DNA of 49,755 bases from an uncultured Flavonifractor sp. GTDB taxonomy: Bacteria; Bacillota; Clostridia; Oscillospirales; Oscillospiraceae. The notes under the pieces were generated by a model that was given only the letters and a program-made list of their open reading frames with translations, did no database searches and was not told the DNA's origin. The position numbers and the translations under genes were made by a program. The stretch is from the NCBI RefSeq assembly GCF_944383115.1, contig NZ_CALWOJ010000007.1:1-49755 (forward strand), given 5' to 3'. This document shows, one piece after another, positions 25,222 to 33,576 of the stretch. The stretch's first letter is position 1. Every line of letters starts with the position of its first letter.

Positions 25222-25977
25222 TCAGATTTTTCTCGGCGTAAAGCGTACCTTCACCCGGCCGCCGCACACCATGCCCAGCTCGGCGGCGGCGTGGGACAGG
25301 TCGTACTCCACCACCTCCTCCGATCCGCCGGACTGCCACAGGGCCAGGGCGTGGGTTTTGGCCTCATACTCCACGGCGCCGCCGCCGATGGTACCGGTGC
25401 AGCTGCCGTCGGGGCGTACCAGCATCCAGGCGCCCACCCCCCGGGGGGCGGAGCCGTGCTTCTCCACAATGGTACACAGCACTCCCGGCCCCTCCGGCGG
25501 CCTGACCGCGCCGGGACCCAGGGCGGCGCGCACCTGCACCAGCTGGGCGGCAATGGACACGGCAATCTCCGCCGGGGTCTGGCCCCCGATGGACAGGCCG
25601 ATGGGGGAGTGTACCCCGTCCAGAGTTTCCTGGGGAAAACCCTCCTCCCGGAGGGCCTTATACACGGCGGCCACCTTGGTGCGGCTGCCGATCATGCCCA
25701 CATAGGCGTATTTGCCCCGCAGCACATGGGCCAGGCAGTCCTTGTCAAAGGCGTGGCCCCGGGTGAGGATGGCAAAATAGTCGCTGTCCCGGCTGCCCAG
25801 CTGGTTGAGGGCCGCCTCAAAGGGCATGCACAGCACCTGATGAGCCATGGGGAAGCGGTCCTGGTTGGCAAACTCCGGCCGGTCGTCCAGGACGATCACC
25901 TCGAATTCCAGCCGGGCGGCGATATGGGCCAGCTCCAGGGACACATGGCCGCCGCCGCACAGGATCAGTCGTTCCAC
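25222..25977 (-). CDS. XdhC/CoxI-family molybdenum hydroxylase maturation protein, swapped domain order
   Basis: A 251-residue protein for sulfuration or insertion of the molybdenum cofactor into xanthine-dehydrogenase-type enzymes. The Rossmann-type domain comes first (LILCGGGHVSLELAHIAARL, VIVLDDRPEFANQDRF, YVGMIGSRTK, SPIGLSIGGQTPAEIAVSI). The XdhC_CoxI domain is C-terminal (LCTIVEKHGSAPRGVGAWML, GTIGGGAVEYEA, MVCGGRVKVRF). Classical XdhC has the opposite order. The GTG at 25977 is chosen since AAGGAG lies 9 bases upstream. It overlaps yqeB by 13 bases, so the two are co-translated. The hydroxylase is not in this window. Confidence 0.88.
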   Translation of the reverse strand: MERLILCGGGHVSLELAHIAARLEFEVIVLDDRPEFANQDRFPMAHQVLCMPFEAALNQLGSRDSDYFAILTRGHAFDKDCLAHVLRGKYAYVGMIGSRTKVAAVYKALREEGFPQETLDGVHSPIGLSIGGQTPAEIAVSIAAQLVQVRAALGPGAVRPPEGPGVLCTIVEKHGSAPRGVGAWMLVRPDGSCTGTIGGGAVEYEAKTHALALWQSGGSEEVVEYDLSHAAAELGMVCGGRVKVRFTPRKI

Positions 25978-26768
25978 AGGTTCAATCTCCTTCCGAAGTA
26001 CAAAATGCCCTCCAGCACGCCGCCGGCAATGGCCCGGGACTTGTCCGACACGGTAAAGCAGTGGTGGGACTGGCACCGGGGATCAATGTCCCCGGCCTTC
26101 ATACCGGCGGTCACCGGGATGCCGGCGGGCAGCATGCCCCGGACGATGCCGGTGAGCTGGGCGGCCACGGGGATGCCGTTGACCCTTGCCACCACGTCCC
26201 CTGCCCCCACCTGTTGGCCGATGACGGCCAGCGGTTCAAAGGGCCCGTCGGCGGGAGCGCGGATGATGCGCTCCTTGGTATAGCCCCCCACATCGCCGGG
26301 CACGCCGGTGTTGGGAATGGCGGTCCCCTCCAGGATCAGGCGGCCCAGATCGTGGCCCCGCATGGTCTCAATGACGCCGTGGCAGTCCACCCCCGCGGTA
26401 AAGCCGGGGCCAAGGGCCAGCACAATGGGGGCGTCGCTGATGCTGGTGCCCAGATTCTTTTTGGCCAGGATGGCGTCTACCACCGCCATAAAGGGCAGCT
26501 GGGACAAGATCTCGCCCTGAGGATCGCACAGGACCGGGATCACGCCCTGTTCCAGCAAAGACTTGGCCTGGAGCCTGCCCTCCGCCTGCCGGGCGGTAAT
26601 GTCCTCCACGGTGGCGGAACCGTCATACATGCACTGGGAGAAGGCCACGGTACGGCGTACCGCCGTGGGCTGGGCCACTTCGGTCATGACCACCTGGAAC
26701 CCGGCCCGGTACAGCCGGATGGCGGTGCCGGTGGCCAGATCTCCCGCGCCTTTCACTAAAATAAGCAT
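25965..26768 (-). CDS. yqeB: Selenium-dependent molybdenum hydroxylase protein YqeB
   Basis: A 267-residue protein of the YqeB (EF2563-type) family, found with selenium-dependent molybdenum hydroxylases; its chemistry is not settled. MLILVKGAGDLATGTAIRLYRAGF is a Rossmann-like start. VVDAILAKKNLGTSISDAPIVLALGPGFTAG-like sequence, CHGVIETMRGHDLGRLI and VPGDVGGYTKERIIRAP follow. A biotinyl-like hairpin is suggested by VIGQQVGAGDVVARVNG. The start at 26768 follows GGGTGG. It overlaps yqeC upstream by 13 bases and xdhC downstream by 13 bases, a tight translational chain. Confidence 0.92.
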   Translation of the reverse strand: MLILVKGAGDLATGTAIRLYRAGFQVVMTEVAQPTAVRRTVAFSQCMYDGSATVEDITARQAEGRLQAKSLLEQGVIPVLCDPQGEILSQLPFMAVVDAILAKKNLGTSISDAPIVLALGPGFTAGVDCHGVIETMRGHDLGRLILEGTAIPNTGVPGDVGGYTKERIIRAPADGPFEPLAVIGQQVGAGDVVARVNGIPVAAQLTGIVRGMLPAGIPVTAGMKAGDIDPRCQSHHCFTVSDKSRAIAGGVLEGILYFGRRLNLWND

Positions 26769-27472
26769 TGTCCACCCCGCTCCTCTTCTCTGTAGTAAGT
26801 GACGGCGCTGTGGATGCCCTGCCGGGCCAGCAGCGCCTGTATCTCGTATCCCCAACGCCGCCGGAGAGGATCGTCCGCCTTGTTCAGCAGGCAGCGGAAG
26901 GCCATGTTGGGGCCGACGCCCTTCCGTCCCCCCTGGGGACTAGCCAGTACCGCCGCCACGTCGGCGGGGGTCAGGATGAGATCCGGGCCTGTCCCCAGCA
27001 GGGCACATACCCGTTCCGGCCGGTGGCAGACAACCTCAATGGCTTGTCCCACGCAGTCCAGGCCCGCCGAGGCGATGACGGCGTGGGCGCCGGGCGGGAT
27101 CACCGGTTCATGGTCTGCCGGGGCTTTCAGGGGGCGCAGCTTGGCTCCGTCCGCCTCCGCCAGCACCACGTCGGCCAGCGCCAGGCAGGCCCCGGGATCG
27201 CCCGCCCCGGTCAGCTTGCCCCGGGCGTCGTAGGCGCCCAGGGTGGCTACCGGATACCGCCCCAGCAGGGCGGCCAGCTCCCCAAGACCGCCTGCCAGGG
27301 GCAGGCCGGGATGGGGCAGAATGTGGGTGGTGGTGGTGACCACCGCCTTGCGGCCGCTGTCTGAGGCCTGTTTGGCCATAGCGTACATGGTGGAGGATTT
27401 CCCGCCCCCGCCCACCAGCGCCACCAGGCGGTGCGCGTCCATATCCAGATTCAGCCGTTCCCAGATTCCCAT
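26756..27472 (-). CDS. yqeC: Selenium cofactor biosynthesis protein YqeC
   Basis: A 238-residue P-loop protein of the YqeC family, linked to labile-selenium molybdenum hydroxylases. It has VALVGGGGKSSTMYAMAK (Walker-A-like GGGGKSS), KAVVTTTTHI, DVVLAEADGAKLRPLKAP and HEPVIPPGAHAVIASAGLD. The start at 27472 is supported by GGGAGG and by position just 2 bases after the mntP stop; the longer frame to 27922 reads through mntP. It presumably acts with YqeB and the XdhC-type protein. Confidence 0.92.
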   Translation of the reverse strand: MGIWERLNLDMDAHRLVALVGGGGKSSTMYAMAKQASDSGRKAVVTTTTHILPHPGLPLAGGLGELAALLGRYPVATLGAYDARGKLTGAGDPGACLALADVVLAEADGAKLRPLKAPADHEPVIPPGAHAVIASAGLDCVGQAIEVVCHRPERVCALLGTGPDLILTPADVAAVLASPQGGRKGVGPNMAFRCLLNKADDPLRRRWGYEIQALLARQGIHSAVTYYREEERGGQCLF

Positions 27473-27474
27473 GC

Positions 27475-28044
27475 TCAGCCTCCCAGGGTATGCTCGGCCA
27501 GGATCTTGAGGCCGATGCCGATGAGGACCAGGCCGCCCACCAGCTCCGCCCGGCGCTGAAATAGCTTCCCCAGACGCCGGCCCGCCAGGCCGCCCGCCAC
27601 CGACAGGACAAAGGCCACCACGCCGATAATAACGGCGGAGAGGAACACCGGCACGTTCATAAAGGCCATGGACACCCCTACGGCCAGCGCGTCGATGCTG
27701 GTGGCGATGGCCAGCAGGCATAGCCGCCGGGCGGACAGGTCGGAGGGGGCTTCCTCCTCCTCGCCGGCGCCGTGACGCAGAGCGCCCCACGCCATCCGCC
27801 CGCCGATGAGGGCCAGCAGGGCGAAGGCCACCCAGTGGTCCACCGCCTCGATGTAGCGGCTGACGCTGCTGCCCAGCGCCCAGCCCATGAGGGGCATGGC
27901 AAACTGGAAGAGGGCAAACCATATCCCCATCTTCACGGCCTGCCGGCCACCGAAGCCGGGGATGGAGATGCCGCTGGACACCGATACGGCAAAGGCGTCC
28001 AGAGCCAGACTGACGGCAATGAGAACGATCTCGATCAAATCCAT
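27475..28044 (-). CDS. mntP: Manganese efflux pump MntP
   Basis: A 189-residue, six-helix exporter of Mn2+. Both halves carry the family's acidic motif: VSLALDAFAVSVSSG in the first and ATSIDALAVGVSMAF in the second. The ATG at 28044 is used rather than the GTG directly before it. It is the first gene of the minus-strand run with yqeC, yqeB and xdhC, spaced by 2 bases from yqeC. Placement with selenium/molybdenum enzyme genes is unusual for mntP; a role with another metal or anion is possible. I see no yybP-ykoY Mn riboswitch upstream. Confidence 0.93.
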   Translation of the reverse strand: MDLIEIVLIAVSLALDAFAVSVSSGISIPGFGGRQAVKMGIWFALFQFAMPLMGWALGSSVSRYIEAVDHWVAFALLALIGGRMAWGALRHGAGEEEEAPSDLSARRLCLLAIATSIDALAVGVSMAFMNVPVFLSAVIIGVVAFVLSVAGGLAGRRLGKLFQRRAELVGGLVLIGIGLKILAEHTLGG

Positions 28045-28077
28045 CACCTGCGAGAATGTAAGGTTTCCTTAAAAGAG

Positions 28078-28106
28078 TATAGCATAGGAGTGGGAACTAT
28101 GCTATA
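28078..28106. promoter_or_regulatory. Perfect 10-bp inverted repeat between mntP and tadA
   Basis: TATAGCATAG, 9-base spacer, CTATGCTATA. It lies in the 88-bp divergent gap and includes -10-like sequences for both directions (TATACT on minus, TATAAC on plus). It could be an operator or overlapping promoters. Confidence 0.65.
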
Positions 28107-28132
28107 ACAAATGATAAGAAGGAGGGGTCTGC

Positions 28133-28576
28133 GTGGAACACGAGGTTTATATGGCCCAGGCGCTGACGCTGGCACGGCAGGCGATGGCGGAGGGCGAGGT
28201 GCCTGTGGGGTGCGTGATTGTAAAGGACGGGGTGGTGGTGGGCAGCGGCCGCAACCGGCGGGAGACCGCCCGCACCGCTCTGGGCCATGCCGAGATCGAG
28301 GCCATCCACCAGGCCTGCCGCACCCTGGGAGGCTGGCGGCTGGGGGGCTGCGCTCTCTACGTTACCCTGGAACCCTGCCCCATGTGCGCCGGAGCCATTG
28401 TCAACGCCCGCATTCCAGCCCTGTACTATGGGGCCAGGGACGACAAGGCCGGGTGCTGCGGTTCGGTGCTGAACCTGTTTGAGGAGCGGTTCAACCACCA
28501 TCCCCGCATCTACGGCGGCGTGCTGGAGGAGGAGTGCGGCGCGCTGCTCCAGGAATTTTTCCAGAACCTGCGGTAG
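28133..28576 (+). CDS. tadA: tRNA-specific adenosine deaminase
   Basis: Deaminates A34 to inosine in tRNA-Arg(ACG). The 147-residue protein has the zinc/catalytic motif GHAEIEAI (HAE) and the second zinc motif EPCPMCAGAIVNARI (PCxxC), plus GARDDKAGCCGSVLNL. The start is GTG at 28133 with AGAAGGAGGGG upstream. The length is normal. It is not followed by the SRP RNA often found after tadA in Firmicutes; instead the two sRNA-like units follow. Confidence 0.95.
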   Translation: MEHEVYMAQALTLARQAMAEGEVPVGCVIVKDGVVVGSGRNRRETARTALGHAEIEAIHQACRTLGGWRLGGCALYVTLEPCPMCAGAIVNARIPALYYGARDDKAGCCGSVLNLFEERFNHHPRIYGGVLEEECGALLQEFFQNLR

Positions 28577-28586
28577 CCGGCGCATA

Positions 28587-28733
28587 TTTAATCGAATTGT
28601 AACAATCCGCCCTACCTTTTTTAACAACCCGCTGTTAGGATAACACTTGCAAGAGACAAAGCTTCTTTTCATTCTATCCTCCAATCATTCAGGAACGGAC
28701 AGCGAGCGCAACGCTGTCCGTTTCGCTTTTTTC
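28587..28733 (+). ncRNA. Candidate small RNA, unit 1 of a tandem pair
   Basis: A non-coding unit with conserved blocks TTTAATCGAATTGTAACA (28587-28604), TTAACA (28621-28626) and TGCAAGAGACA (28648-28658). A pyrimidine-rich single-stranded stretch with CTTCTTTTCATT and ATCCTCC follows. It ends in a terminator (AACGGACAGCG / CGCTGTCCGTT, then GCTTTTTT). All blocks recur exactly 181 bp downstream. There is no ORF with a ribosome-binding site. The TCCTCC stretch is complementary to Shine-Dalgarno sequences, as in CU-rich regulatory sRNAs. Confidence 0.6.
28694..28733 (+). terminator. Terminator of sRNA-like unit 1
   Basis: An 11-bp stem AACGGACAGCG / CGCTGTCCGTT with a 7-base loop, followed by TCGCTTTTTT. 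Confidence 0.9.
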
Positions 28734-28767
28734 GTGTTTACAGGATGTTTACACAAAAAGTGGCGGA

Positions 28768-28919
28768 TTTAATGGATTTGTAACACCTTCCGTTTTTTTC
28801 GTTAACATCTTTTGGGTAACATAGAATCTGCAAGAGACAGTTTCTTTTCATTTCATTGTATCCTCTTTCCTTCAGCAGGGGCCGGACGCCAGGAGCGGGC
28901 GTCCGGCCCCTGCTGTTTT
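28768..28919 (+). ncRNA. Candidate small RNA, unit 2 of a tandem pair
   Basis: Same architecture as unit 1: TTTAATGGATTTGTAACA (28768-28785), TTAACA (28802-28807), TAGAAT, TGCAAGAGACA (28829-28839), TTTCTTTTCATT and ATCCTCTTTCC. It ends in an 18-bp perfect terminator stem starting CAGCAGGGGCC with TTTT. The terminator stems of the two units are unrelated in sequence, whereas the promoter-side and 5' blocks are conserved. Confidence 0.6.
28873..28919 (+). terminator. Terminator of sRNA-like unit 2
   Basis: An 18-bp perfect stem (28873-28890 with 28898-28915), 7-base loop, TTTT tail. Confidence 0.9.
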
Positions 28920-28926
28920 GGCCGCA

Positions 28927-28963
28927 AAAAGGCCGGGCCGCCGTGAAAACGGCGGCCCGGCCG
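28927..28963 (-). terminator. Terminator of the downstream lipoprotein gene
   Basis: On the minus strand, GGCCGGGCCGCCGT / ACGGCGGCCCGGCC with a short TTTC-type loop is followed by TTTTTGCGG. It ends the gene at 28990. Confidence 0.9.
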
Positions 28964-28989
28964 GAAGATGTAAGCAGGGAAAGAGAGCC

Positions 28990-29364
28990 TCAGCGTTTGA
29001 AGGTCATGGAGATCCCGTCCTCCTCCATGACCACTGCGTTGCCGGTCAGGGTGGCGGAGACGTCGGAGCCGTCCGAGCTGAGGGTCAGCTCGCTGCCCTC
29101 GGCAGTCCAGGTGCCCTCCACCGTTTCGCTCTCAAGGCCCCCAGCGTTCATTTCCAGGGTGAAGCTGCCGTCCGCTTTCAACGCCAGGGTACCGCTGACC
29201 GTGGTGCCGATCAGGGCGCTCAGATCCGCAACGCTCATTTCATTCATGCCCGGCACTTTTGCCGAAGACAAACTATAGACGCCCACAGGACCGCTGCTGC
29301 CGCAGGCGGCCAGGCTAAACATCATTGCAAGGGCCAGGAACAGAGCCAAGGTGCGCTTTTTCAT
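28990..29364 (-). CDS. Small lipoprotein, tandem paralogue A
   Basis: A 124-residue exported lipoprotein: signal MKKRTLALFLALAMMFSLAAC with lipobox SLAAC. The mature part is a short beta-rich domain with GTWTAEGSELTLSSDGSDVSATL, reminiscent of lipocalin-like/META-type small folds, but no function is known to me. It is clearly a tandem paralogue of the gene at 29464-29841, sharing the signal peptide, the GSDVSATL block and VVMEEDGxSxTF. The start at 29364 follows AAAGGAAGG. Each copy has its own terminator. Confidence 0.88.
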   Translation of the reverse strand: MKKRTLALFLALAMMFSLAACGSSGPVGVYSLSSAKVPGMNEMSVADLSALIGTTVSGTLALKADGSFTLEMNAGGLESETVEGTWTAEGSELTLSSDGSDVSATLTGNAVVMEEDGISMTFKR

Positions 29365-29407
29365 GGCATCCTTCCTTTCTCCTTCGGTTTCAGATCGGTC
29401 TGGCAAG

Positions 29408-29446
29408 ATCAAAACCGGGCCGCCGCTTCTGCGGCGGCCCGGTTGA
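29408..29446 (-). terminator. Terminator between the paired lipoprotein genes
   Basis: Minus strand AACCGGGCCGCCGC, loop AGAA, GCGGCGGCCCGGTT, then TTGATC; 18 bp after the stop at 29464. Confidence 0.85.
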
Positions 29447-29463
29447 CAGGCGATGTAATCGAT

Positions 29464-29841
29464 TTACTGCTTCTCAAAGGTGAGGGACTGGCCGTCCTGC
29501 TCCATGACCAGAGTCTTGCCGTTCAGGGTGGCGGAGACGTCGGAGCCTTCGGAGGTGAGGGTCAGGTTGTTGCCGTCGGCAGTCCAGGTGCCGGAGACGC
29601 TCTCGCCGGTGCCCAGGGCGCTCATGTCCAGGCTAAAGTTGCCGTCTTCCTTGAGTTCCAGGGTCACGCTGACATCCACGCCGGCCATAGCGGCGATGTC
29701 GTCGATGTTCATCTCAATGCCGCCGGCGTTCATCTTGGTCATCTTGTAGGAACCGGCAGGACCGCTGCCGCCGCCGCCGCAGGCAGCCAGGCTGACGATC
29801 ATCGCAAGAGCCAGAAACAGAGTCAATGCACGCTTCTTCAT
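29464..29841 (-). CDS. Small lipoprotein, tandem paralogue B
   Basis: A 125-residue lipoprotein: signal MKKRALTLFLALAMIVSLAAC (lipobox SLAAC), a Gly-rich linker (GGGGSGPAGS), then a beta-rich domain with VTLELKEDGNFSLDMS and SGTWTADGNNLTLTSEGSDV. Function unknown. It has the only strong promoter of the pair (29918-29946), so copy A may be expressed by read-through past the terminator between them or from an unseen promoter. Confidence 0.88.
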   Translation of the reverse strand: MKKRALTLFLALAMIVSLAACGGGGSGPAGSYKMTKMNAGGIEMNIDDIAAMAGVDVSVTLELKEDGNFSLDMSALGTGESVSGTWTADGNNLTLTSEGSDVSATLNGKTLVMEQDGQSLTFEKQ

Positions 29842-29891
29842 AACATTCTTCCTTTCTTCTTCAGCCGCAATGCGGCGGAGGTCGAAATAAA

Positions 29892-29946
29892 CGAAATACG
29901 TTCATTTCGCAAATAGGATTATAGCATAGAATGGAAAAAGAGGCAA
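29892..29946 (-). promoter_or_regulatory. Promoter and inverted repeat of the lipoprotein pair
   Basis: Minus-strand TTGCCT (29946-29941), 17-bp spacer, TATAAT (29923-29918). Just downstream is the inverted repeat CGAAAT-6-ATTTCG (29892-29909), which may be an operator or a 5' hairpin. Confidence 0.75.
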
Positions 29947-30004
29947 CATGAAATAAACCTTAAATCAATCTGGCTCTTGAAAAGAAGTGCAAAGATCAGC
30001 CCAT

Positions 30005-30571
30005 TCACAAGTTCAGGTCCGCCGGCGTGTCCACGTCGAAGAGTTCCCGGGGGCTGTCCGCCTCCACCAGCAACAGCCGCTCCCGGTGGCGTTTCACCAC
30101 AGCTCCGCCGCCGGTGTCCCCGGTAAGGACGGCCAATTCTCCGAAAAGATCGGCTGGGAAGATCACCGGGTTGCCCCGTTGCCCCATCCAGGACAGGGCG
30201 CAGATGGCGTTTTCTGATTCCTTAAAGGTATCTTTTAGACGTATAATACTATTTGTGGTCAAAAAAGGCTGGTCGCACACCGAAAACAGCACCCCATCCA
30301 TGCCCTCCATTCGGGACAGGCCCAGACGAATGGAGGCGGAGATACCCTCCGCCCCGTCCGGGTTGTGGAGCGGGAGGAAGCCCAGTTCCTCCCCGGCGTG
30401 CAGCACCTCCTGATAGGGGGAGCAGACCGCCAGTCGGTCCAGACCCGCCCCGGCCAGGGTGGTCATAGCGCGGCGGTAGAGGGGGACGCCCTCTACCAAC
30501 CTCAACAGTTTATTGGAGCCGAACCGCCGGCCCTGACCGGAGGCCAACAGTACCGCCCCGATCCGTTTCAT
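30005..30571 (-). CDS. mocA: Molybdenum cofactor nucleotidyltransferase (MocA-like)
   Basis: A 188-residue NTP-transferase that attaches CMP (or GMP) to molybdopterin for hydroxylase enzymes. It begins MKRIGAVLLASGQGRRFGSNKLL (nucleotide loop, MobA-type LASGxGxRFG). LHNPDGAEGISASIRLGL, LFSVCDQPFLTTNSI and GQRGNPVIFP follow, then GDTGGGAV and FDVDTPADL. These favour MocA over MobA. Its start overlaps the hydA stop by 4 bases. It links the hydA operon to molybdenum-hydroxylase function. Confidence 0.9.
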   Translation of the reverse strand: MKRIGAVLLASGQGRRFGSNKLLRLVEGVPLYRRAMTTLAGAGLDRLAVCSPYQEVLHAGEELGFLPLHNPDGAEGISASIRLGLSRMEGMDGVLFSVCDQPFLTTNSIIRLKDTFKESENAICALSWMGQRGNPVIFPADLFGELAVLTGDTGGGAVVKRHRERLLLVEADSPRELFDVDTPADLNL

Positions 30572-31950
30572 CGCCAGAACTGGGCGGGGCCACGGGACAC
30601 ATAGCGGCCCAGACCCTCCTGAACCACCTTGCCGTCCTTTACTGCCACCTGGCCGTCCAGCAGCACCGTGTCGGTGCGCCCCGCCATCTCCATGCCCTCG
30701 TAGGGGGTGTAGTCCACCCGCTGATATTGGGCCTCGGCGGTAATACGCCAGGTATAATCAGGATCAAAGATTACGATATCGGCGTCGCTGCCCACCGCCA
30801 GAGCGCCCTTCTGGGGGAACATGCCGAAGAGCTGGGCGGGGTGCTGGGCCAGAGCCAGCATCATCTGGTGGGGGGTGATGCGGCCGGACTTCACGCCGCA
30901 GGTGTACATAATGGGGGGGCGGTGCTCGGTGCCGGGGATGCCGCCGGGGATGGCGGAGAAGTCATCCTTGCCCAGCATCTTGGTGGGGTTGAAGTTGAAG
31001 GAGCAGTGGTCGGTACCGATGGTGTCGATCTCTCCGTTCTCCAGGGCCTCCCACAGGGCGTCCACATCGGACTGGGGCCGGGCGGGAGGGGCGCACACAT
31101 ACTTGGCGCTCTCGAAGCCGGGCAGGTGGTACTTGTCCTCGGTGAGGGTGAAGTACTGGGGACAGGACTCCAGGTAGACCTTCTGGCCCCGGTTCCGGGC
31201 GGCACGGGCCGCCTCCAGGCCCCGCTGGGTGGACAGGTGGACCACATTGACGGGGTAGCCCGCCTGCTCGGCCAGAGCCAGCCAGCGGTCCACCGCCTCC
31301 GCCTCCATGACGGCGGTGTGGGACAGGGGATGGCTGGCGGGGGAGAGCTTGCCGGCGGCCTTCAGCTCGGCGATGGCCCGGTCAATGAGGTCGCCGTTCT
31401 CGCAGTGGCAGCCCACCACGCCGCCCTCCTTGCCCACGGCCTTGATGACCTCGTAGGCCACGCCGTCGGAGATGCGGATGTTGGCGTAGGCCAGGTACAC
31501 CTTGTAGGAGGTGACGCCCTGGGCGGTCATCCGGGGGATCTCCGCGATGATGCGGCTGTCCCAGTCCTTGATGGTCATGTGGAAGCCGTAGTGGCAGCTG
31601 GCGTGGCCGTCGGCCCGGGCATGCCACTCGTCCAGGGCGGACTGGAGGGAGGCCCCCCGCTCCGGCTCGGCAAAGTCCAGCACGCAGGTGGTGCCGCCGG
31701 CCAGGGCGGCTTTGGTGCCGCTTTCCCAGTTATCGGCGGTCTCCCGGATGGTGCCCTTGTTCATTTCAAAGTGGGTGTGGGTGTCGATAAAGCCGGGGAA
31801 CACCAGCTTGCCCGCGGCATCGATGACCTGGCTGTCTCCCACCGGCAGGCCGGGGCCGATCTCGGTAATTTTGTCCCCCTCCACCCGCAGGTCGGCCTGA
31901 ACGGGGCCCTGGGGACAGATCAAAGTGCCGTGTTGAATAAGGATGGACAT
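30568..31950 (-). CDS. hydA: Dihydropyrimidinase/D-hydantoinase-type cyclic amidohydrolase
   Basis: A 460-residue metal-dependent hydrolase that opens cyclic amides (hydantoins, dihydropyrimidines or purine breakdown rings). Metal ligands seen: FIDTHTHFEM (HxH), the carbamylated-Lys site SYKVYLAYANI, His in GCHCENGDLI, His in NVVHLSTQRG, and Asp in IGTDHCSFNF. It is most like the HydA (YgeZ/SsnA-neighbourhood) group that travels with selenium-molybdenum enzymes. It is coupled to mocA downstream. Upstream on the same strand are a small membrane gene and two PLP enzymes. The substrate is not deducible from sequence alone. Confidence 0.9.
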   Translation of the reverse strand: MSILIQHGTLICPQGPVQADLRVEGDKITEIGPGLPVGDSQVIDAAGKLVFPGFIDTHTHFEMNKGTIRETADNWESGTKAALAGGTTCVLDFAEPERGASLQSALDEWHARADGHASCHYGFHMTIKDWDSRIIAEIPRMTAQGVTSYKVYLAYANIRISDGVAYEVIKAVGKEGGVVGCHCENGDLIDRAIAELKAAGKLSPASHPLSHTAVMEAEAVDRWLALAEQAGYPVNVVHLSTQRGLEAARAARNRGQKVYLESCPQYFTLTEDKYHLPGFESAKYVCAPPARPQSDVDALWEALENGEIDTIGTDHCSFNFNPTKMLGKDDFSAIPGGIPGTEHRPPIMYTCGVKSGRITPHQMMLALAQHPAQLFGMFPQKGALAVGSDADIVIFDPDYTWRITAEAQYQRVDYTPYEGMEMAGRTDTVLLDGQVAVKDGKVVQEGLGRYVSRGPAQFWR

Positions 31951-31969
31951 GAGAGGGACCTCCTTTCCT

Positions 31970-32308
31970 TTACAGCTGCATGATCAGGATGGGAACAACG
32001 ATTTTTATAGCGCCTACGATCAGGGTCATAAAGGTGAGCAGGGCCAGGGCGCTGAACCGCTTGCCGAAAGCGTCCTGCCAGCGGTCCAGCATACGGGTGA
32101 AATTGGCCATCCGGCGCTGGGGGCCCAGCAGGTCGGCCATGCCCCGGAACAGGGTGTAGGCCAGATAGCCCAGCCACACGGCGATGAGTACGAAGGTGAG
32201 GGTACCGTCATGGCGCCAGAACAGCAGAAGATAGAGGGAGAGGATAAAGCTGGCCAGGGTCAGGATAAAGTGGGCCCAGACCCCCATTTTGGCGGCGCGT
32301 TCATTCAT
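31970..32308 (-). CDS. Small membrane protein in the hydA operon
   Basis: A 112-residue protein not recognised. Hydrophobic segments lie at about residues 9-29 (GVWAHFILTLASFILSLYLL), 36-54 (LTFVLIAVWLGYLAYTLF) and 88-110 (LALLTFMTLIVGAIKIVVPIL). A basic amphipathic loop (PQRRMANFTRMLDRWQDAFGKRF) lies between the second and third. It sits 19 bp before hydA and 29 bp after the threonine-synthase-like gene, so it is probably co-transcribed. It could be a transporter accessory or a membrane anchor for the enzymes; only position suggests this. Confidence 0.75.
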   Translation of the reverse strand: MNERAAKMGVWAHFILTLASFILSLYLLLFWRHDGTLTFVLIAVWLGYLAYTLFRGMADLLGPQRRMANFTRMLDRWQDAFGKRFSALALLTFMTLIVGAIKIVVPILIMQL

Positions 32309-32337
32309 GGTGATAGATTTCCTTTCTTTGGTTGGTT

Positions 32338-33576
32338 TCAGGGACGGATGCCCGCCCGGTCAAAGGCGTCCAGAAGGGCGTCCATGTCCGGTTTCACCAG
32401 CATGGGTTCCCCGGCAGCCTTGATGCCGTTTTGCACGTCCTTGAGGCCGTTGCCGGTGACAATGCTCACCACCGTGCTGTCGGGGGAGATGAGGCCCAGC
32501 TCCAGGGCCTTCTTCACCCCGGCGGTGCCGGCGACCCCGGCGGGTTCCCCAAACACGCCCTGGGTGCGGCCCAGCAGGCGCATGGCGGCCAAAATCTCCT
32601 CGTCGGATACGTTGACGGCCACACCGTGGGAGGCCCGGATGGCGCCCAGGGCCTTATCCGGGTTGCGGGGCACCCCCACGGCGATGGAGTCGGCCAGGGT
32701 GTTCTCCTCCATGGGCGACCAGGGCTGTCCGGTCTGGATAGCCCGGTTCAGGGGGCAGCAGCCCTCGGCCTGGACGGCGATAAGCCTGGGCAGCCTGTCA
32801 ATGAGGCCCACCTCGTAGAGGTCCACAAGGCCCTTCCAGGCCCCGGCGATGGTGCAGCCGTCCCCCACGGACAGGGCGATGTAGTCGGGCACCTGCCAGT
32901 TCAGCTGCTCCATGATCTCCAGGGTCACCGTCTTTTTGCCCTCGGACAGGTAGGGGTTGATGGCGGCGTTGCGGTTGTACCAGCCCCACTTGTCGATGGC
33001 GGCCTTGGACAGCTCGAAGGTGTCCTCATAGGAGCCGTCCACGCTGATGACGGTGGAGCCGAAGATCCGCAGCTGGGCCACCTTGCCCTTGGGGGCCCGG
33101 CTGGGTACGAAGATGTAGGTGGACAGCCCCGCCGCCGCGGCGTTGCCCGCCAGGGAGGAGGCGGCGTTGCCGGTGGAGGAGCAGGCGATGGTATCCGCCC
33201 CCGCCTCCTTTGCCTTGACCACCGCCAGGGCGGAGGCCCGGTCCTTCAGGGAGGCGGTGGGGTTCTGGCCGTCATCCTTGATGTACAGCTGTTTCAGCCC
33301 CAGTTCCGCCCCCAGCCGGCCGGCCTCGTAGAGGGGGGACCAGCCCACCCGCAGGGGCGGGGGAGCGGAGTCCTCCTCGATGGGCAGCAGAGACCGGTAC
33401 CGCCACATGGAGCGATCCGGGTTTTGGGCCAGCTTTTCCCGGGAAAGATCCCGGCGGAGGGCGGCGTAGTCGTACCGGATATCCAGGATGCCCCCGCAGG
33501 AGCAGGTGGTGAGGTTGGGGACGGCGGCGTATTCCCTGCCGCATTTGACGCACTTGGCGCCCAGAACGTATTTCAT
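32338..33576 (-). CDS. Threonine synthase-like PLP enzyme with zinc-ribbon N-terminus
   Basis: A 412-residue fold-type-II PLP enzyme. The N-terminus has four cysteines (CVKCG and TTCSCGG) of a small zinc ribbon, common in archaeal/clostridial threonine synthases. The core has NPTASLKDRASALAV (PLP Lys in SLKDR), ACSSTGNAASSLAG (phosphate loop), ALSVGDGCTIAGAWKG, EPAGVAGTAGVKKAL and SIVTGNGLKD. By family it would make threonine from phosphohomoserine. However, its place beside hydA and a second PLP enzyme suggests a beta-elimination role in a catabolic path. It holds one Noc-site-like palindrome at 33,435-33,446. It lies 14 bp after the other PLP gene. Confidence 0.85.
   Translation of the reverse strand: MKYVLGAKCVKCGREYAAVPNLTTCSCGGILDIRYDYAALRRDLSREKLAQNPDRSMWRYRSLLPIEEDSAPPPLRVGWSPLYEAGRLGAELGLKQLYIKDDGQNPTASLKDRASALAVVKAKEAGADTIACSSTGNAASSLAGNAAAAGLSTYIFVPSRAPKGKVAQLRIFGSTVISVDGSYEDTFELSKAAIDKWGWYNRNAAINPYLSEGKKTVTLEIMEQLNWQVPDYIALSVGDGCTIAGAWKGLVDLYEVGLIDRLPRLIAVQAEGCCPLNRAIQTGQPWSPMEENTLADSIAVGVPRNPDKALGAIRASHGVAVNVSDEEILAAMRLLGRTQGVFGEPAGVAGTAGVKKALELGLISPDSTVVSIVTGNGLKDVQNGIKAAGEPMLVKPDMDALLDAFDRAGIRP
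33435..33446. promoter_or_regulatory. Second Noc-binding-site-like palindrome (in coding sequence)
   Basis: TTTCCCGGGAAA lies within the threonine-synthase-like gene, with T and G as flanking bases instead of A and T, so 12 of the 14 consensus bases match. Confidence 0.5.

Follow-up and report, generated by a model that had tools for sequence, protein, structure and literature searches.

The csRNAs of Streptococcus, which belong to the CiaRH system, occur as several siblings per genome, some of them in tandem, and some of the tested targets are transporters. Their leaders carry anti-Shine-Dalgarno (anti-SD) and anti-AUG sequences, an intrinsic terminator follows, and an OmpR-type 11-bp direct repeat is located about 10 bp upstream of the -10 element (PMC3091779, PMC8186281, in the parts considered here). 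The CiaR repeat is given as NTTAAG-N5-TTTAAG with an invariant G, and the csRNA promoters are an instance of in-phase boxes at OmpR-family activated promoters (PMC3091779, same parts). In Listeria, LhrC1-5 are multicopy sRNAs under control of the two-component system LisRK; their CU-rich motif binds the SD region, and the target lapB encodes a cell-wall-associated protein (PMC4132741, in the part considered). GcvB of the Enterobacteria represses substrate-binding components of ABC transporters (PMC11878033, in the part considered) and, according to the title of a reference therein, targets C/A-rich elements.

Here we investigated a stretch of 49,755 nucleotides (the window) from an uncultured Flavonifractor sp. 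of the Oscillospiraceae, for which a tandem pair of sibling sRNAs had been proposed from the sequence alone (the original prediction). Among the titles listed by literature searches none concerns an sRNA study of these gut bacteria, and the main text of PMC8040213, as far as considered, names neither Flavonifractor nor Oscillospira. The interpretation as sibling sRNAs is supported by our analysis. The units themselves, their conservation, promoter geometry, terminators and complementarity to mRNAs can be read from the DNA, and the view that they are RNA genes appears well supported. The best reading, which we regard as probable, is that of sibling sRNAs, probably driven by a two-component system, which would repress lipoproteins of uptake systems.

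Layout and distribution of the locus

The two units are confirmed as real. Each consists of an activator-type promoter, a leader of about 42 nt beginning with GCAAGAGACA, and a terminator, in the following order:

28133 to 28576, plus strand: ORF of 147 aa, upstream neighbour of sRNA A, which we, like the original prediction, take to be tadA (tRNA adenosine deaminase)
28586 to 28641, plus strand: predicted promoter of A, with boxes TTTAAT (28587-28592), TGTAACA (28598-28604) and TTAACA (28621-28626) and -10 element TAGGAT (28636-28641)
28649 to 28732, plus strand: sRNA A, about 84 nt, predicted start GCAAGAG; leader 28649-28691, terminator hairpin 28692-28724, T-run 28727-28732
28767 to 28822, plus strand: predicted promoter of B, with boxes TTTAAT (28768-28773), TGTAACA (28779-28785) and TTAACA (28802-28807) and -10 element TAACAT (28817-28822)
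28830 to 28919, plus strand: sRNA B, about 90 nt, predicted start GCAAGAG; leader 28830-28872, terminator hairpin 28873-28915 with the loop AGGAGCG (28891-28897), T-run 28916-28919

Three blocks do repeat at exactly 181 bp, as had been claimed: TTTAATCGAATTGTAACA at 28587 and TTTAATGGATTTGTAACA at 28768, TTAACA at 28621 and 28802, and TGCAAGAGACA at 28648 and 28829. The offset of ATCCTC (28676 and 28860) is 184, because the second leader is longer there. Just two exact copies of TGCAAGAGACA exist in the window, and with two mismatches it occurs 11 times against 10.4 expected, which is not above chance; therefore its significance rests on the comparison between genomes. Also the claim of an own terminator for each unit holds, with a hairpin and T-run in both and folds of -27.0 (z -3.3) and -47.4 kcal/mol (z -6.9). 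At gathering scores Rfam gave no match in the window, and around the locus just unrelated ones below threshold. Own promoter, lack of an ORF, intrinsic terminator and a conserved intergenic unit, as one would expect for a base-pairing sRNA, thus all appear to be present.

On the minus strand of the window two adjoining small lipoprotein genes (28990-29412 and 29464-29841) lie near the sRNAs. They begin nearly alike (MKKRTLALFLALAM...), are paralogues by reading, and are of the kind that the leaders could pair with. The minus strand from 25222 to 33576 presumably holds a molybdenum-hydroxylase and pyrimidine/purine-degradation-like cluster, with members that we take, from their translations, to be XdhC-like, MocA-like, dihydropyrimidinase-like and threonine-synthase-like.

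The 336-bp locus was matched in all 20 same-genus genomes, its own included, and in 4 of 40 that are more distant. When 32 units were used to build a model of promoter and leader from sequence only, it matched 186 of 300 genomes of the family, in 74 of 106 genera, so the blocks are conserved far beyond this genome. Among 391 genomes drawn from the class the same model gave five matches: the own genome, one further family member and three weak ones (G370, G553, G708), all three outside the family and without the full layout. A pattern scan of a named collection yielded 49 stretches, titled Flavonifractor, Pseudoflavonifractor, Intestinimonas, other Oscillospiraceae or with less specific names; the cultured F. 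plautii ATCC 29863 is among them with a match of type B.

Conservation is concentrated in the leaders. Over 19 tandem loci the mean pairwise identity is 95% for the A leader and 100% for the B leader, which is identical in 19 of 19. By comparison, the final 150 bp of tadA reach 73%, the promoters of A and B 77% and 76%, the A terminator and spacer together 56%, the B terminator 87% and the downstream sequence 32%. By tblastn, 48 of 77 loci (with overlaps among several of them) have a tadA gene alongside, and this in several genera; therefore the site behind tadA looks old and the other sites look like later copies, an order of copying that we infer from these neighbourhoods. tadA itself is probably merely a neighbour. 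In G200, a single contig of 3.7 Mb (loci L083, L102, L110, L115, L117-L120), the model matches 11 times, 9 times with more than 44 bits; many of these copies are scattered and B-like, and their leader is shortened, as though the unit had spread within this genome by copying.

Leaders and their predicted mRNA partners

The putative pairing region consists of three collinear blocks, GCAAGAGACA, CUUUUCAU and UCCUC, which complement early signal-peptide codons, AUGAAAAAG and the SD, respectively. ATCCTC had been named as the SD-complementary seed; it does belong to the pairing region, however as one part of three, and the anti-AUG segment, the pairing of GCAAGAGACA itself and the -10 element had been missed. 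Similarly, the CU-rich run had been described as open. This is true for CUUUUCAU in both predicted folds, but weak pairing is predicted for the 5' block of either RNA: it involves the tail beyond the T-run in A and the leader segments AUUGU and CUCUU in B, where also part of the anti-SD is weakly paired. Thus, the leader is not simply open, and the 5' block would have to open for target pairing.

Possible targets were ranked in 0.8 Mb of the relative G018, with 654 crudely called genes including spurious ORFs. At start regions in general both leaders modestly beat their shuffles (means of -16.1 versus -13.5, sd 1.4, for A and -17.1 versus -16.1, sd 0.8, for B; 30 mononucleotide shuffles each); mid-gene means could not be used, since a filler value stood in for every window that had no duplex. 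The best partner of A among the 654 is pstS, at -29.7, followed at -29.5, a lead of 0.2 kcal/mol. With the pstS of its own genome A reaches -26.0 to -33.0 kcal/mol in 17 of 17 same-genus genomes, and this was equalled by none of 200 shuffled leaders in 15 genomes, by one in another and by two in the last. These come from 32 pstS loci, five of them without a start; of the 27 starts, 18 were paired with a leader (the 17 and G033). G008 and G019 had no pstS match and G011 was outside the pstS search. The predicted duplex joins CUCCAAUCAU to AUGAUUGGAG (at least 10 bp in most) and UCUUUUCAU to AUGAAAAAGA, and CUUGC, around codons 6-8, would be bound by the 5' end of the leader. Each of the 17 pstS starts contains TGATTGGAG; GATTGGAG is shared also by two genomes from other genera, G307 and G200. 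For B and pstS no consistent fit was obtained, 1 to 44 of 200 shuffles being as good.

Read as its reverse complement, the A leader forms a start region, GGAGGATAGAATG. A search of 20 genomes for the target pattern GGAG-N4-13-ATG-N3-27-CTCTTGC (SD, ATG and complement of the 5' block) gave 244 matches, the antisense of A included, versus 94 for the reversed pattern. One recurrent match is a LivJ-like start, ATGAAAAAGTCTCGCATCCTGTCTCTTGC and variants, in at least 10 genomes with the ORF read in 7; the complement to GCAAGAGACA is present in it as TGTCTCTTGC or as a variant that is identical at this place. Complementarity to these two distant mRNAs is thus kept across genomes, and pstS and the LivJ-like mRNA are well supported as candidate partners by it.

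Twenty matches were chosen by eye for lipoprotein-like starts, and of the 19 readable ORFs among them 17 read like substrate-binding lipoproteins. Pfam was run on eight, of which seven pass the cut-off for a family of binding proteins (Peripla_BP_6, Peripla_BP_2, NMT1 twice, SBP_bac_8, TctC and SBP_bac_1) and the eighth has a TctC match just below it; L327, from the search with the B core, is SBP_bac_3, and L343 a Germane lipoprotein. Over 18 chosen starts the energies are -24.5 to -40.3 kcal/mol for A (0 to 6 of 100 shuffles as good) and -24.2 to -42.0 kcal/mol for B (0 or 1 of 100), a fit that is partly by construction, since the starts were picked for a match to the 5' block or, in one case, to the B core.

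A preference for lipoprotein starts in general was examined with a crude sequence pattern as label, several labelled genes being doubtful in both genomes used. In G018, 20 lipoprotein-like starts pair better than 200 sampled out of 583 others, by -3.4 (A) and -2.3 (B) in the median, with 0 and 2 of 60 shuffled leaders as extreme. By the identical procedure G119, of another genus, gave -7.0 and -5.4 for 16 lipoprotein-like starts of 563, with none of 60 shuffles as extreme for either leader; here the best partner of both leaders is the antisense of the sRNA locus, which at first stood among the non-lipoproteins and was dropped for the following comparison. With controls matched for ATGAA, A keeps a weak preference in G018 (13 versus 95 genes; p 0.035) and B has none (p 0.45); in G119 (7 versus 78) the preference persists for both, with p 0.0002 and 0.0009. 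CTTGC within codons 2-20 is found in 9 of 36 lipoprotein-like and 41 of 1129 other genes (p 9e-6) and TCTTGC in 4 and 14 of these (p 0.002); the full CTCTTGC, with 1 of 36 and 4 of 1129, is not significantly enriched (p 0.15).

These numbers bear on the alternative that survives best, namely that the sRNAs are real and act on one or few mRNAs such as those of pstS and the LivJ-like protein, with the wider preference resulting from CU-rich sequence meeting AUGAA starts. The small excess over shuffles at starts in general and the weak matched-start result in G018 would fit this. However, the matched-start result is strong in G119, albeit with seven lipoprotein-like genes, CTTGC is enriched in lipoprotein-like genes, and varied substrate-binding families are among the strongest partners, picked as these were by pattern and eye. 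We therefore consider so narrow a target range rather unlikely, and action on the lipoprotein class as supported, partly confounded by the start sequence common to the targets.

Searches for exact reverse complements did not add useful candidates. The A core had 20 matches in 19 of 20 genomes, 19 of which are the sRNA itself; the B core found the sRNA itself in 20 of 20 genomes plus 17 scattered sites with two mismatches, several clearly not at starts, and a string common to G009, G015 and G008 precedes different proteins. The one remaining match of the A core, L180 (G006:C216:82034), is a start region with a perfect 15-nt complement, seen in 1 of 20 genomes, and presumably belongs to a CoA-transferase. 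In G018 the top partners of B adjoin a GntR-ABC operon (one genome).

Promoters, terminators and the remaining alternatives

Both units had been thought to have one promoter type in common, with a possible regulator site upstream, and both points were borne out, the latter in the form of regulator-like boxes. The order is TTTAAY, 11 bp to TGTAAC, about 22 bp to [GT]TAACA (with variants), about 9 bp to TAnnnT and 7-8 nt to GCAAGAGACA, the first two boxes being TTTAAY-N5-TGTAAC. In 43 distinct units the GCAAG block always follows ATTTAA (ATTTCA in one) at a distance of 62 or 63 nt, one unit without a box at a contig end having been dropped; the alignments took 42 and then 32 units, and TAnnnT is invariant in all 32. 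Strict promoter patterns match these promoters only, in 26 of 26 matches among 20 genomes (18 with matches) and, in a second set, in 10 of 10 among 8 genomes (7 with matches), where a reversed control pattern gave 2. Looser copies occur, for instance an extra unit in G014. Boxes in phase that replace a good -35 element are typical of promoters activated by the OmpR family. Judged by this geometry, the promoters with their poor -35 most likely need an OmpR-family response regulator on the 11-bp-phased boxes.

Such a regulator could be PhoP. According to this second alternative the locus belongs to the phosphate regulon: PhoP would bind the boxes, A would be a feedback on pstS, and both RNAs would limit other uptake proteins in phosphate starvation. 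The rank of pstS as best A partner speaks for it, and so do the pstS promoters of the genus, which have the geometry of the sRNA promoters (box, 11 bp, box, about 23 bp, box, 9 bp, -10). In G018 a pst-phoU cluster is followed by an OmpR-type regulator and a kinase, names that come from reading translations. But the boxes differ systematically in sequence, CTTTACA at pstS versus TTTAAY / TGTAAC / [GT]TAACA at the sRNAs, which speaks against a simple PhoP answer, and repression of pstS under phosphate shortage would be odd unless it serves as damping. We regard this alternative as unlikely. A literature search by title for PhoP boxes in Clostridium gave nothing on point. The pstS promoters (loci L029-L040) also show conserved CTTTACA repeats and, farther upstream, inverted TGTAAAG.

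The original prediction contrasted conserved 5' parts with diverged 3' stems. Between A and B this is correct; within type B, however, stem and loop are kept across genera with compensatory changes. The terminator of type A (unit 1) is variable, that of type B (unit 2) is conserved, with the loop AGGAGC(A/G) in most copies. Over 38 B copies its 13-pair stem has 99.0% standard pairs in 491 cells and 8 pairs that change on both sides, and 0 of 500 shuffles reach either value. The loop (28891-28897 in the window) resembles an SD; UCCU or CUCC in the leaders of A or B are possible partners for it.

This strong conservation of loop and closing stem across B copies would also be expected if the RNAs acted chiefly by protein binding, for example of a CsrA-like protein at the GGA of the loop, and not by base pairing. 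The loop is missing, however, from most A copies, a single GGA per RNA makes a poor sponge, and the most conserved part is the leader and not the loop, all of which renders this very improbable. A small protein gene on the minus strand, suggested by the good start region in the reverse complement of A (GGAGGATAGAATGAAAAG; ORF 28097-28684), can practically be dismissed: this sole long candidate runs antisense through tadA, in agreement with the earlier statement that no ORF fits, its frame in A is broken by one-base length differences in relatives, the reverse strand of B reads ATGAAATGA with an immediate stop, and promoter and terminators are oriented along the plus strand.

Proposed action and comparison with known sRNAs

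Returning to the sibling sRNAs as repressors of uptake lipoproteins, we propose that the locus encodes two trans-acting sRNAs, A of about 84 nt and B of about 90 nt, which would be transcribed under a two-component system whose OmpR-family response regulator acts on the phased boxes. The three blocks of the leaders may then pair collinearly with the translation-initiation regions of mRNAs for exported lipoproteins, favouring the substrate-binding proteins of uptake systems (PstS, LivJ-like, NMT1-type, siderophore-, sugar- and TctC-type): UCCUC would cover the SD, CUUUUCAU would cover AUGAAAAAG, and GCAAGAGACA at the 5' end would cover early signal-peptide codons such as CUGUCUCUUGC. With the initiation sites covered, translation would most likely be blocked, and the signal sensed by the two-component system would therefore lower the load of uptake lipoproteins. 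We infer that the RNAs are made and bind their targets, and likewise the signal, the regulator and the direction of the effect; we hold the whole at probable and no higher because the 5' block is paired in the predicted folds and the lead of pstS is narrow.

If this is right, a post-transcriptional regulator exists in most sampled genera (74 of 106) of one gut family, and its named targets (PstS, LivJ-like and other substrate-binding proteins) can be tested directly. In addition, it would clearly exemplify how an sRNA, through the codons of the signal peptide, can recognise a class of proteins instead of single genes. More tentatively, and at somewhat less than even chances, one may see here an sRNA class spanning the Oscillospiraceae, whose leader is antisense to lipoprotein starts in general (the SD, then AUG-Lys-Lys, then early signal-peptide codons) and whose promoter motif, in its strict form, drives no other RNAs in the genomes searched, so that one two-component signal tunes the nutrient-binding lipoproteins as a class.

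Among the known systems, GcvB is Hfq-linked, and LhrC and GcvB are both represented in the Rfam library. A and B resemble GcvB, as far as the cited parts describe it, in that their predicted targets are substrate-binding proteins of uptake systems; unlike the C/A-rich targets of GcvB, their leaders match SD, AUG and signal-peptide codons, and they have no Rfam match. With LhrC, to the same extent, they have in common the multiple copies, the CU-rich, SD-complementary leader and the predicted two-component control. However, LhrC carries repeated UCCC motifs within two loops and a linker, whereas the leaders of A and B carry three different blocks, there is no UCCC in the two leaders of the window, and Rfam again does not match. 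Like the csRNAs, in what the cited parts report, A and B are siblings in tandem with 11-bp-phased boxes, anti-SD and anti-AUG sequences in the leader and an intrinsic terminator. The csRNAs differ by their two stem-loops and by their occurrence in another class of Firmicutes, and, unlike in these, the 5' block of A and B also pairs, by prediction, with signal-peptide codons. Moreover, instead of the CiaR box TTTAAG-N5-TTTAAG we find TTTAAY-N5-TGTAAC plus a third box, without the G there, so the test for a CiaR box was negative. Because of this result and the lack of an Rfam match we do not file A and B under csRNA, LhrC or GcvB. By analogy, the best reading is nevertheless that they work like these three.
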